From an uncultured Flavobacteriaceae bacterium (GTDB taxonomy: Bacteria; Bacteroidota; Bacteroidia; Flavobacteriales; Flavobacteriaceae): 64,000 nt of DNA. Below the pieces are notes generated by a model that did not search any database, was not told where the DNA came from, and was given only the letters and a program-made list of their open reading frames with translations. The stretch covers positions 186,001 to 250,000 of the forward strand of contig CANKYF010000004.1 in the NCBI GenBank assembly GCA_947487895.1, read 5' to 3'. Made by a program: the position numbers and the translations under genes. Of the stretch, positions 2,894-61,676 are shown piece by piece (the first letter of the stretch is position 1; each line of letters begins with the position of its first letter).

Positions 2894-2919
2894 CACTTCG
2901 ACAAAGCTCAGTATGACAT
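2894..2919. repeat. Copy of the CACTTCGAC/GCTCAGT palindromic repeat
   Basis: CACTTCGAC-AAA-GCTCAGTATGACA is one copy of the short intergenic repeat that recurs near 31.2, 31.6, 57.7 and 61.6 kb. Here it lies between the permease gene and the TlpA-like gene. Confidence 0.6.
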
Positions 2920-5626: not shown

Positions 5627-5693
5627 TTGGTGACTGAGGTTCTCGAAGTCACCTTTATTTACTTATTGTCACTTCGAGAACCTCAGTGACCAA
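5627..5693. repeat. Inverted repeat, 23-bp arms
   Basis: The left arm (5627-5649, with GACTGAGGTTCTCGAAGT) and the right arm (5671-5693, with ACTTCGAGAACCTCAGT) are complementary at 22 of 23 positions around a 21-base loop. It fills the gap between the DUF1599 and DoxX genes and could fold as a large hairpin in their common transcript. Confidence 0.85.
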
Positions 5694-12177: not shown

Positions 12178-12259
12178 TGTCAAACTGAACTCGTTTCAGT
12201 TTCTCATAAAGATTCTGAAATATACTTCAACTATGTTCAGCACAAGAATTCAGAATGAC
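12178..12259. repeat. Intergenic repeat in the truA leader
   Basis: ACTGAACTCGTTTCAGTTTC, followed by a second half ending AATTCAGAATGACA, resembles the dispersed flavobacterial element that begins or ends with TGTCATTCTGAA. It separates the truA promoter from the gene. Confidence 0.45.
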
Positions 12260-30337: not shown

Positions 30338-31132
30338 ATGAAGAAAATAACAAGTATTCAAAATTCTTTTATTAAACATCTTACGCAACTGAAAGACAAG
30401 TCTCGCGAACGCAGAAAAAATGAACTATTTTTAATAGAAGGGCTCCGTGAAATTTCTTTAGCATTAAAAGGCGGTTATGAAATAGATACAGTTCTCTTCT
30501 ATCCTGAATTAATATCTCTTGAAGAAATCAACAATTTAACAAATCAACAACTCAATACTATAGAAATCTCCAAAGAAGTATACCAAAAACTTGCTTATAG
30601 AGATACAACTGAAGGTATATTAGCTGTGGCTAAATCTAAAACAAATACTTTAAACGATTTAAATTTTAAAACGAAAAATCCTTTAATATTAGTAGCTGAA
30701 GCCCCTGAAAAACCTGGTAATATTGGTGCTCTTTTAAGAACTGCTGATGCCGCTAATGCTGATGCTGTTATAATTGCCAATCCTAAAACCGATTTATACA
30801 ACCCTAATATCATTAGATCTAGTGTGGGTTGCGTATTTACCAATCAGGTAGCTACTGGTTCAACTTCTGAAATCATTTCATTTCTAAAAGAAAATAACAT
30901 CAATATCTATTCTGCTATTTTACAGGAATCTGTTGAATATCATACTCAGGACTTAACTAAGCCAACTGCTATTGTGGTTGGTACTGAAGCTACTGGATTA
31001 AGTGAAGAATGGCGCATCAACGCAACACAAAATATTATTATACCTATGCAAGGCGAAATAGATTCAATGAATGTCTCTGTTGCTGCTGGAATTCTTATTT
31101 TTGAAGCGAAAAGACAGCGAAATTTTGAATAG
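30338..31132 (+). CDS. SpoU/TrmH-family RNA 2'-O-methyltransferase
   Basis: 264 residues. N-terminal substrate-binding domain (HLTQLKDKSRERRKNELFLI with EGLREISLA) of the RlmB/TsnR kind, then the knotted SPOUT domain: EAPEKPGNIGALLRTADAAN, VVGTEATGLSEEWR and IPMQGEIDSMNVSVAAGILI. Uses S-adenosylmethionine to methylate a ribose in rRNA or tRNA; the target base is not predictable. A different SpoU enzyme is at 39503-40159. Confidence 0.92.
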   Translation: MKKITSIQNSFIKHLTQLKDKSRERRKNELFLIEGLREISLALKGGYEIDTVLFYPELISLEEINNLTNQQLNTIEISKEVYQKLAYRDTTEGILAVAKSKTNTLNDLNFKTKNPLILVAEAPEKPGNIGALLRTADAANADAVIIANPKTDLYNPNIIRSSVGCVFTNQVATGSTSEIISFLKENNINIYSAILQESVEYHTQDLTKPTAIVVGTEATGLSEEWRINATQNIIIPMQGEIDSMNVSVAAGILIFEAKRQRNFE

Positions 31133-31157
31133 TTTTGTATTAATGTAAGTTTAATAA

Positions 31158-31185
31158 TGTCACACTGAGCGCAGTCGAAGTGCTT
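31158..31185. repeat. Left 28-bp inverted repeat flanking the GIY-YIG pseudogene
   Basis: TGTCACACTGAGCGCAGTCG followed by AAGTGCTT is an exact reverse complement of 31632-31659. Confidence 0.9.
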
Positions 31186-31202
31186 TAAACCTTCAAAATT
31201 AA

Positions 31203-31516
31203 ATGTATTCCTATTTTGTATATATCTTGCAATGCTCTGACGATTCTTATTATACAGGAATCACAAATGATATAAATAGAAGAATAGATGAACATAAACT
31301 AGGAAAAACAGAGACTGTTACACGTATAAAAGAAGACCTGTAGAATTAAAGTTTCATGAAACTTTTAATGACGTTTTACAAGCTATTTATTTTGAAAAGA
31401 AAATAAAAAAATGGACTAGAGCAAAAAAAGCAGCTTTAATAAATGGTAATTTTAATATGCTTCTAATTTTAGCTGAATGCAGAAATGCTACACATTATAA
31501 ATATTCTGGTGAATAA
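31203..31516 (+). pseudogene. GIY-YIG nuclease gene broken by a frameshift
   Basis: The first part reads YFVYILQCSDDSYYTGITND (the GIY-YIG motif as VYI and YTG) and NRRIDEHKLGK, then slips into a stop at about 31340. The +1/-1 frame continues as YTYKRRPVELKFHETFNDVL, FEKKIKKWTRAKKAALING, to a stop at 31516. The total length of 314 bases is one short of a multiple of three, so a single-base deletion near 31318-31322 would explain the break. Intact relatives are about 100-residue UPF0213-type single-domain nucleases. It is bracketed by perfect inverted repeats. Confidence 0.85.
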
Positions 31517-31590
31517 GAATATCTTTTGAAATGAAATTCACATATTTTTGTTATTCAATTTTAATTTAGAAAGTAAAAAAATACTATCAT

Positions 31591-31615
31591 TTCATGTTGA
31601 GCGCAGTCGAAACAC
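31591..31615. repeat. Internal partial repeat copy
   Basis: TTCATGTTGAGCGCAGTCGA resembles the left end repeat and lies just inside the right end repeat. Confidence 0.6.
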
Positions 31616-31631
31616 AATAATAGCACCATTT

Positions 31632-31659
31632 AAGCACTTCGACTGCGCTCAGTGTGACA
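31632..31659. repeat. Right 28-bp inverted repeat flanking the GIY-YIG pseudogene
   Basis: AAGCACTTCGACTGCGCTCA followed by GTGTGACA is the exact reverse complement of 31158-31185. Confidence 0.9.
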
Positions 31660-31694
31660 CAGAAAATAAATTACAACTTAGAACAAAATAATAA

Positions 31695-32927
31695 ATGACC
31701 GCAACAACCCTATTCTACATCATAATAGCAATTATCATCATCAATTTTATTATTGATAAAGTACTCGATGCTTTAAACGCCAAACATTTTAATGATCAAT
31801 TGCCAGAGGACTTACAAGATGTTTATGATGATACTGAATACAAAAAATCGCAAAATTACAAGTCTACAAAATATAAGTTTGGTGTTTTAACATCCACATT
31901 TTCAATTATTCTAACCCTAGCATTTTTGCTTCTTGATGGTTTTGAATTTGTAGACAATATTGCAAGAAGTTACAGTACAAATCCAATAATTATTGCATTA
32001 ATTTTCTTTGGAATCATTATGATTGCTAGTGATATTTTAACCACTCCATTTTCATATTATAGCACGTTTGTGATTGAAGAAAAATTTGGGTTTAACAAAA
32101 CCACAAAAAAAACCTTTGTTTTAGATAAAATAAAAGGTTGGCTAATGTCTATCATTTTAGGTGGAGGTATTTTAGCGTTAATCATTTGGTTTTATAATGC
32201 TACTGGAAAACACTTTTGGTTGTATGCATGGGGCTTAGTGGCCTTTTTTAGCATTTTTATGAATATGTTCTATTCTAAACTTATTGTACCTCTGTTTAAC
32301 AAGCAAACACCATTAGAAGAAGGCGATTTACGTGATAAAATTTCTGCATATGCTAAAACCGTTGGTTTTAAACTCGACAAAATTTTTGTGATAGATGGTT
32401 CTAAACGCAGTACCAAAGCCAATGCTTACTTCTCTGGTTTTGGTAGTGAAAAACGTGTAACACTATATGATACTCTAATAAACGATTTAGAAGATGAAGA
32501 AATAGTAGCCGTATTAGCCCATGAGGTGGGACACTATAAAAAGAAACATATCATTTTTAATTTAGTGACTTCTATTTTATTAACAGGCTTGACACTTTAT
32601 ATTTTGTCTTTATTTATTTCAAATCCAATGTTATCACAAGCTTTAGGCGTTGAAACAGCTAGTTTTCATGTAGGACTTATTGCCTTTATGTTGCTTTACT
32701 CTCCCATTTCTGAAGTAACTGGTTTAATAATGAATGTATTCTCTAGAAAGTTTGAATATCAAGCTGATAATTATGCTAAAAACACCTATAAAGGAGAGCC
32801 ATTAATTACAAGCTTAAAAAAGCTTTCAAAAAACAGCTTAAGTAATTTGACACCACACCCCGCTTATGTGTTTATGCATTATTCTCATCCTACATTATTA
32901 GAGCGGATTAAGAATTTGAAGAGGTAA
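31695..32927 (+). CDS. M48 (Ste24/CAAX-protease-1-like) membrane metallopeptidase
   Basis: 410 residues with several membrane helices. The zinc site is VLAHEVGHYKKKH, with the third ligand in FEYQADNYAKN. The N-terminal region FSYYSTFVIEEKFGFNKTTK is characteristic of Ste24-like enzymes. It probably degrades damaged or misfolded membrane proteins in the inner membrane. The start is ATG. A gene-free stretch follows. Confidence 0.92.
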   Translation: MTATTLFYIIIAIIIINFIIDKVLDALNAKHFNDQLPEDLQDVYDDTEYKKSQNYKSTKYKFGVLTSTFSIILTLAFLLLDGFEFVDNIARSYSTNPIIIALIFFGIIMIASDILTTPFSYYSTFVIEEKFGFNKTTKKTFVLDKIKGWLMSIILGGGILALIIWFYNATGKHFWLYAWGLVAFFSIFMNMFYSKLIVPLFNKQTPLEEGDLRDKISAYAKTVGFKLDKIFVIDGSKRSTKANAYFSGFGSEKRVTLYDTLINDLEDEEIVAVLAHEVGHYKKKHIIFNLVTSILLTGLTLYILSLFISNPMLSQALGVETASFHVGLIAFMLLYSPISEVTGLIMNVFSRKFEYQADNYAKNTYKGEPLITSLKKLSKNSLSNLTPHPAYVFMHYSHPTLLERIKNLKR

Positions 32928-57540: not shown

Positions 57541-57688
57541 AATAACTAAACTTTTATCCCGAAAGTTTTATTTATTGATTTTGAAATTGGCAGGTCTCCT
57601 GACTTGTTTAAATGTTGCCTTTCCTTCCCAGCTTGATGCCAGTGGTTTTGTAGTAAACAACATCCTCATTTTTGAGGTACTGAAATTG

Positions 57689-57760
57689 CACTTCGACTAG
57701 CTTCACTAGTTACTTTCAAACAAAACATGTTTTGTTTGAAAGTAATGCTCAGTGTGACAT
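57689..57760. repeat. Intergenic repeat inserted in the riboswitch, itself split
   Basis: CACTTCGACTAGC (57689-57701) and GCTCAGTGTGACAT (57747-57760) are the two halves of the dispersed repeat seen at 61624-61647, separated here by 45 bases that include the palindrome 57710-57745. Confidence 0.8.
57710..57745. repeat. 36-bp perfect palindrome
   Basis: TTACTTTCAAACAAAACA followed at once by its exact complement, no loop. It interrupts the dispersed repeat in the riboswitch. Confidence 0.97.
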
Positions 57761-61366: not shown

Positions 61367-61676
61367 AAGTTGAAAAAATAATTATTAACGAAAAAAGGTT
61401 TTAACAGAAAGTCAAGACCCAAATTCCGATGGAATCGGAATCATCAAAAATCAGAAATAATGAACGAAAGAGTGAAGATGCAAAGCAAAGCTTTAAGCAC
61501 GTAACTCTAAAGTGAATGGTGCTTTAGCAATTTCCTATTTTTGATTTGATTTTTTGGTTCGTTTTGTATCAAGACAAAATGAACAGAAAAGAAAAAGGTA
61601 CAATTTAAAACAAATCCTGCCTTCACTTCGACAAGCTCAGTGTGACACTCAGTGACCACGAAGGAAAAACAAAAAA
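61367..61676. other. Gene-free stretch between cobT and cobS
   Basis: It contains a hairpin ATTCCGATGGAATCGGAAT (about 61421-61440), AT-rich spacer DNA, a GTTTTGTATCAAGACAAAAT inverted element (about 61562-61581), and a copy of the CACTTCGAC-AA-GCTCAGTGTGACA repeat (61624-61647). No reading frame or riboswitch. Confidence 0.6.
61624..61647. repeat. Uninterrupted copy of the palindromic repeat
   Basis: CACTTCGACAAGCTCAGTGT followed by GACA; the undisturbed counterpart of the copy split inside the riboswitch. Confidence 0.7.

Follow-up and report, generated by a model that had tools for sequence, protein, structure and literature searches.

The GIY-YIG nuclease gene in the window (the whole stretch of 64,000 nucleotides analysed here, from an uncultured Flavobacteriaceae bacterium) is one of many small bacterial GIY-YIG genes that lie between inverted, subfamily-specific short repeats. 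Together with the comparisons below, this suggests that small GIY-YIG nucleases are the missing enzyme partners for a large class of bacterial intergenic repeats. The preliminary description of the locus, a frameshifted single-domain GIY-YIG gene inside 28-bp perfect inverted repeats with a partial third copy, is confirmed by the sequence (Table 1). The two perfect copies, TGTCACACTGAGCGCAGTCGAAGTGCTT, occupy 31158-31185 and 31632-31659 and agree at 97% when extended to 31 nt, and the third copy (core 31598-31611) pairs in inverted orientation with the right arm over 14 bp. The gene runs from 31203 to its stop codon at 31514-31516. PF01541 matches residues 4-42 of its first half, and the two halves match positions 2-43 and 35-85 of a 98-position family profile in separate frames; the gene therefore encodes a single domain, carries a frameshift and covers most of the profile. 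On a second profile, the 3' half covers positions 33-91 of 92. Pfam identified GIY-YIG and no transposase domain on the nuclease, and five relatives match PF01541 at E 2e-15 to 1e-19. Y10, Y21, G23, R31 and E68 are invariant in all six rows of alignment A1, which does not include the window gene; the conserved Tyr, Tyr, Arg and Glu are presumably the GIY-YIG active-site residues. A PDB sequence search returned the UPF0213 proteins 1zg2 and 1ywl as best matches, followed by UvrC 1yd6. No GIY-YIG subfamily name scored above its cut-off in NCBIfam, and no Rfam match within 30500-32300 of the window reached the gathering threshold.

Table 1 Repeat and nuclease features of the window, in order of position
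Feature	Coordinates	Strand	Evidence
Lone variant repeat copy, CTGAGCTTTGTCGAAG	2894..2918	-	Pattern search
Gene-less inverted doublet, class C variant (CTGAGGTTCTCGAAG)	5635..5690	.	Pattern search
Left cognate repeat copy (class C), TGTCACACTGAGCGCAGTCGAAGTGCTT at 31158-31185	31154..31188	+	Repeat comparison
GIY-YIG nuclease gene, 5' half; frameshift, then premature stop	31203..31343	+	PF01541 E 1.7e-10; ORF
GIY-YIG gene, 3' half, in another frame, up to the stop	31298..31516	+	Profile matches in that frame
Partial third repeat copy; inverted doublet with the right copy	31586..31611	+	Doublet fold z -4.16
Inverted right repeat copy	31629..31659	-	Repeat comparison
Class C copy, core split by a long hairpin	57688..57759	-	Read by eye
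Lone variant repeat copy, CTGAGCTTGTCGAAG	61624..61647	-	Pattern search

With up to two mismatches allowed, TGAGCGCAGTCGAA has four matches in the window where 0.12 would be expected, and the genome contains 41 copies of the 13-base core TGAGCGNAGTCGA and none of the reversed control pattern; the dispersal of the core is therefore not due to chance. The lone copies described earlier at 2894, 57.7 kb and 61.6 kb do exist, but they are loop variants. The term palindrome suits the inverted pair, which folds strongly as DNA (z -4.16), but not the single window copy, which is a weak hairpin (z 0.55). Single class B and class C repeats, one example each, fold as weak hairpins.

The source genome (G000) contains 13 places matching PF01541, including the two halves of the window gene. 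Longer proteins, which we take to be UvrC and an exonuclease-UvrC type, are encoded at L018 and L019, and ten genes, namely the nine from L009 to L017 and that of the window, encode the domain only, with L009 exceptional. Exact inverted repeats of at least 15 nt surround four of the ten (L009, L013, L016 and the window gene), imperfect copies were seen by eye on either side of L010, L011, L014 and L015, and L012 and L017 adjoin tRNA genes and are accompanied by a partial copy of a tRNA (by eye). Within this genome, the repeat varies with the protein type: the class C repeat CTGAGC..GTCGAAG accompanies the window gene and L010, the class B repeat GTCATTGCGA..AATCT accompanies L011 and L014, and the class A repeats GTCATTCCGCACTTGATGCGGAATCC and GTCATTTCCGCGAAGGCGGAAAT accompany L013, L015 and L016. 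One class E copy and one class A copy are also present in the window, at 12185 and 49951, respectively. In L009 (1477-2787), a class C GIY-YIG domain reads in frame through the repeat into the downstream ORF, 436 aa in total; Pfam names GIY-YIG alone in this fusion, and the remainder is presumably GHMP-kinase-like. At L010 (1396-1440), the predicted N-terminus of a neighbouring gene appears by eye to be repeat-encoded in G000, with another start in G006 and G002.

Repeat flanks are found far beyond this genome. Of the best 80 among at least 571 confirmed relatives, which represent many phyla, 39 have the gene spanned by an inverted repeat (score at least 15), compared with 1 of 320 random windows from the same loci. 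At the 74 loci with sufficient flank for comparison with neighbouring ORFs, the count was 36 (38 being negative in this strict test). The neighbouring ORFs gave 4 of 153, and those bearing spacers of at least 60 bp gave 3 of 103. REP-like hairpins with a GTC head flank 51 of the 77 loci with sufficient flank for this test, compared with 15 of 400 control windows, and lie on both sides with heads outward at 22 of the 77, compared with none of the 400. Counted flank by flank, upstream hairpins are in + orientation 38 times and in - orientation 16 times, and downstream hairpins in - orientation 33 times and in + orientation 10 times. Repeat flanks are thus far commoner at GIY-YIG homologues than at other genes (36/74 against 3/103) or in control windows (51/77 against 15/400), and the association is peculiar neither to flavobacteria nor to the repeat of the window gene.

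The class of the flanking repeat follows the nuclease clade. Labels for the 80 broad loci and the 39 from congeners came from flank patterns drafted after the flanks had been viewed, with four tRNA labels set by hand, and 97 of 119 received one; for the tree, the partial rows of the window gene and L147 were replaced by L105 (unlabelled by the patterns) and L108 (labelled C), giving 119 rows with 96 labels (A 68, C 10, B 9, tRNA 4, E 4, F 1), and L146, a 43-residue fragment, stayed outside the tree. On this tree, which is built from few columns of a short alignment and leaves half of its forks open, the six labels require five changes, the minimum, compared with a shuffled mean of 27.2 (none of 200 shuffles as low), and a tree with 95 labelled rows gave the identical outcome. 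With 'none' counted as an extra class, 21 changes are needed, compared with 46.0 after shuffling. A pattern-free test within the genomes of five congeners (39 loci, 151 pairs) gave a Spearman correlation of 0.22 between protein and flank similarity, matched by none of 2000 permutations; L105 and L108 were absent from this test, from the initial labelling and from the tree with 95 labelled rows. Of 38 class C genes, comprising 30 of 45 family-wide class C matches and eight congener genes, 36 lie no more than about 250-280 bp from a class C pattern. The class C repeat has three subtypes, which require four changes (minimum two), or five with 'none' included, compared with 13.2 after shuffling (none of 200 as low).

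Moreover, repeat density is associated with presence of the nuclease. In 80 genomes from 80 genera of the family, a class C nuclease was detected in 32 at a cut-off of E ≤ 1e-20. The median density of GAGCGNAGTCGA cores is 4.1 per Mb in these 32 and 0.37 in the 48 others, an eleven-fold difference (means 5.5 and 0.95), with a Mann-Whitney p of 2.9e-8, or 5.7e-8 minus the window's genome, both values ignoring kinship among genera. At least eight cores are present in 22 of 32 nuclease genomes and six of 48 others, and the reversed-pattern control gives 0.28 per genome with and 0.21 without the nuclease. Four of the 32 (G032, G034, G037 and G045) have no more than two cores; in G032, G037 and G045, other repeat subtypes or loops lie next to the nuclease gene. 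The expectation that repeat number tracks the nuclease thus holds for the medians but not for six of the 48 nuclease-negative genomes (G021, G025, G027, G033, G064 and G069), which have 9-34 cores; repeats can therefore exist without a detectable nuclease. Two of these six are merely 80-84% complete. A weakly matching class C nuclease hidden in the six was considered and not borne out: a looser search gave matches in five of them, and of the 15 loci read none is class C, 12 having a tRNA or a different repeat class as neighbour and three having none that was noticed. G025 has 34 class C cores, some in opposite pairs about 44 bp apart, with no class C nuclease found; it also carries three consecutive class A matches (L225, L236 and L237), two of them short.

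Empty sites were looked for in congeners and found at the window site, the L010 site and a tRNA-Arg site. Across seven genomes, the window site carries the unit in two (frameshifted in G000, and in G006 an open gene tightly bracketed by class C copies), other gene-less doublets in three (a class E inverted pair in G005 and, decayed, in G004; a class B pair in G002) and nothing in G003, and G001, with a different upstream gene, lacks synteny. In G050, from another genus, a class C gene follows what seems by eye to be the same methyltransferase gene. At the L010 site, covered by six genomes with the neighbour gene, G000 has the gene and both repeats between two genes that are adjacent without a repeat in G006 and G002, and other sequence is present in G001, G004 and G005. 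The one empty allele of the window site and the two of the L010 site are repeat-free, and the repeats therefore arrived or left together with the gene at those sites; the differences at orthologous sites, where the congeners have diverged too far for exact junctions or target duplications to be placed, fit gain and loss alike. Of the seven congeners, three carry inverted doublets with the window-type core: G000 has three (including one within the window), G003 one and G006 four, with none in the control. These three genomes have class C genes with the window-type core, and G005 has a class C gene with the core in GAGCGGAGTCGA form and no doublets. In some genomes, near-identical copies stand in tandem (96-99.8% identity at L145, L184, L189, L202, L203, L206 and, in part, L225; 87-95% at L157). 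At L157 (278-3276), a 182-bp tandem array of repeat-bearing units neighbours two class C genes separated by about 1 kb. By eye, L015, L105 and L110 look like a single GIY-YIG insertion that three of the seven congeners have kept at one position, flanked by what were read as trpB and trpA.

One branch of these nucleases is associated with tRNA genes. Profile A2, built from L012, L017 and L131, found matches at E ≤ 1e-10 in 35 of 80 genera, the weakest of which belong to other clades. At nine of the ten best A2 loci and six of 20 weaker ones, the gene has a tRNA no more than 400 bp away, compared with none of 29 class C loci and one of the 80 in the broad set. Read by eye, 12 of 16 printed loci have the order palindrome-bearing tRNA fragment, nuclease gene, intact tRNA; the order is reversed in L190, L202 and L206, and L200 has neither. 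Some units of this branch recur in tandem every 304-357 bp. GIY-YIG genes at tRNA loci with palindromic tRNA fragments were noted at L181-L185, L187-L190, L194, L196, L202, L203 and L206. At the L017 site, G000 carries a tRNA fragment, the gene and an intact tRNA-Arg, and six of seven congeners have a plain tRNA there. The 5' half of the intact tRNA-Arg of G000 is unlike that of all six, which also differ from one another. The L017 unit looks like an insertion into a tRNA gene with the tRNA restored, a direction of change that we infer from the sequence.

Taken together, the nuclease locus in the window is probably a decayed copy of a small mobile unit. Such a unit would consist of a repeat, a single-domain GIY-YIG nuclease gene and an inverted repeat. 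Each nuclease clade would recognise and cut the short repeat particular to it, probably as single-stranded DNA or as a hairpin, and repair would carry copies to new intergenic places, either of the whole bracketed unit or of an inverted pair of the same repeat that lacks the gene; these gene-less pairs would then be the non-autonomous form of the unit. By analogy, such a unit would work like a RAYT with its REPINs, yet it is neither. Similar to that system are the bracketing of the window gene by inverted repeats, the gene-less inverted doublets in its genome and the tie between repeat class and enzyme clade, which is also known for RAYTs. In contrast, the enzyme here is a GIY-YIG nuclease and not an IS200/IS605-type tyrosine transposase, and the repeat heads are GTCA where those of RAYTs are GTAG. 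The RAYT/REP-like reading put forward earlier is thus supported in its bracketing, clade match, density and empty sites, while dispersal caused by the nuclease is what we infer from them.

The Ssn family, reportedly described in Nat Commun in 2025, offers another comparison. A meningococcal GIY-YIG enzyme of this family is said to cut single-stranded DNA site-specifically at a dispersed repeat present in hundreds of copies and to modulate transformation, and its many homologues reportedly have a sequence of their own each. The family shares with the genes studied here a stand-alone GIY-YIG domain and a cognate dispersed repeat. If that work is as reported, cognate recognition already has support, and the nuclease-dependent dispersal that the preliminary description had considered new is perhaps not wholly so, because the Ssn family would already tie single-domain GIY-YIG enzymes to such repeats. 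The emphasis of that work is reportedly on cleavage and transformation, and it is not known to describe mobile units, gene-less doublets at orthologous sites, co-resident clades each with its own repeat, or a tRNA branch. What would then be new is the evidence for mobile units, the finding that several clade-specific repeats share one genome, the connection with CGTC REPs and the branch at tRNA genes. Among titles and abstract openings in the open literature (top-ranked entries for the larger searches), none dealt with GIY-YIG genes in connection with REPs or with insertions into tRNA genes, and the repeat letters as a text query gave no match.

The same reported cleavage of an abundant repeat and effect on transformation, together with the matching anatomy, would fit an enzyme that is no mobiliser but a site-specific single-stranded DNA nuclease, whose repeat modulates DNA uptake and recombination and is kept and spread, together with the gene, by ordinary repeat recombination. 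This is rather unlikely, considering that whole units and gene-less doublets vary among congeners at orthologous sites, that tandem copies at seven loci are 96-99.8% identical and that one branch resides in tRNA loci. Less probable still is homing, in which the nuclease would cut repeats spread by another agent and its gene would be copied in as a parasite of the repeat. Such a gene would be expected inside a pair of its repeat, as here, with gene-less doublets elsewhere, and a small GIY-YIG gene with occupied and empty alleles does recall free-standing homing endonucleases. However, where homing calls for an intact target in the empty allele, the repeat is missing from both empty alleles at the L010 site and the one at the window site; at the tRNA site, in contrast, the six congeners lacking the unit do have the plain tRNA. 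No intron or intein is involved. Finally, the repeats and nuclease genes, both being intergenic, might merely collect in the same spacers, with the repeats serving as transcription terminators, but the rarity of such flanks at spacer-bearing neighbouring ORFs (3/103) and the clade-specific match, which this would leave unexplained, make it very improbable.

Beyond the single unit, we tentatively consider it possible that single-domain GIY-YIG nucleases constitute a second REP-enzyme system beside RAYTs, which would mobilise CGTC REPs and further repeat classes clade by clade, with a tRNA-gene branch that would carry a palindromic pseudo-tRNA and restore an intact tRNA. According to Di Nocera 2013 (PMC3733652), CGTC-tagged REPs have a C/TGTC head, a stem of 8-9 bp, a loop of 4-5 nt and a CCA tail, are known from five phyla, seemingly lack a dedicated transposase and are equivalent to dRS3 of Neisseria and RPE-4/6 of Rickettsia; a search of that text gave no occurrence of the term GIY-YIG. 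Many class A flanks, for example GTCATTCCCGCGCAGGCGGGAATCCA, fit this text description (PMC3733652), and the class C repeat of the window shares the head without a stable stem. The clade-by-clade match between small GIY-YIG nucleases and such repeats offers a testable answer to the question of what spreads CGTC REPs, and yields both enzyme-site pairs for biochemistry and a parallel to RAYTs and REPINs based on an unrelated enzyme.
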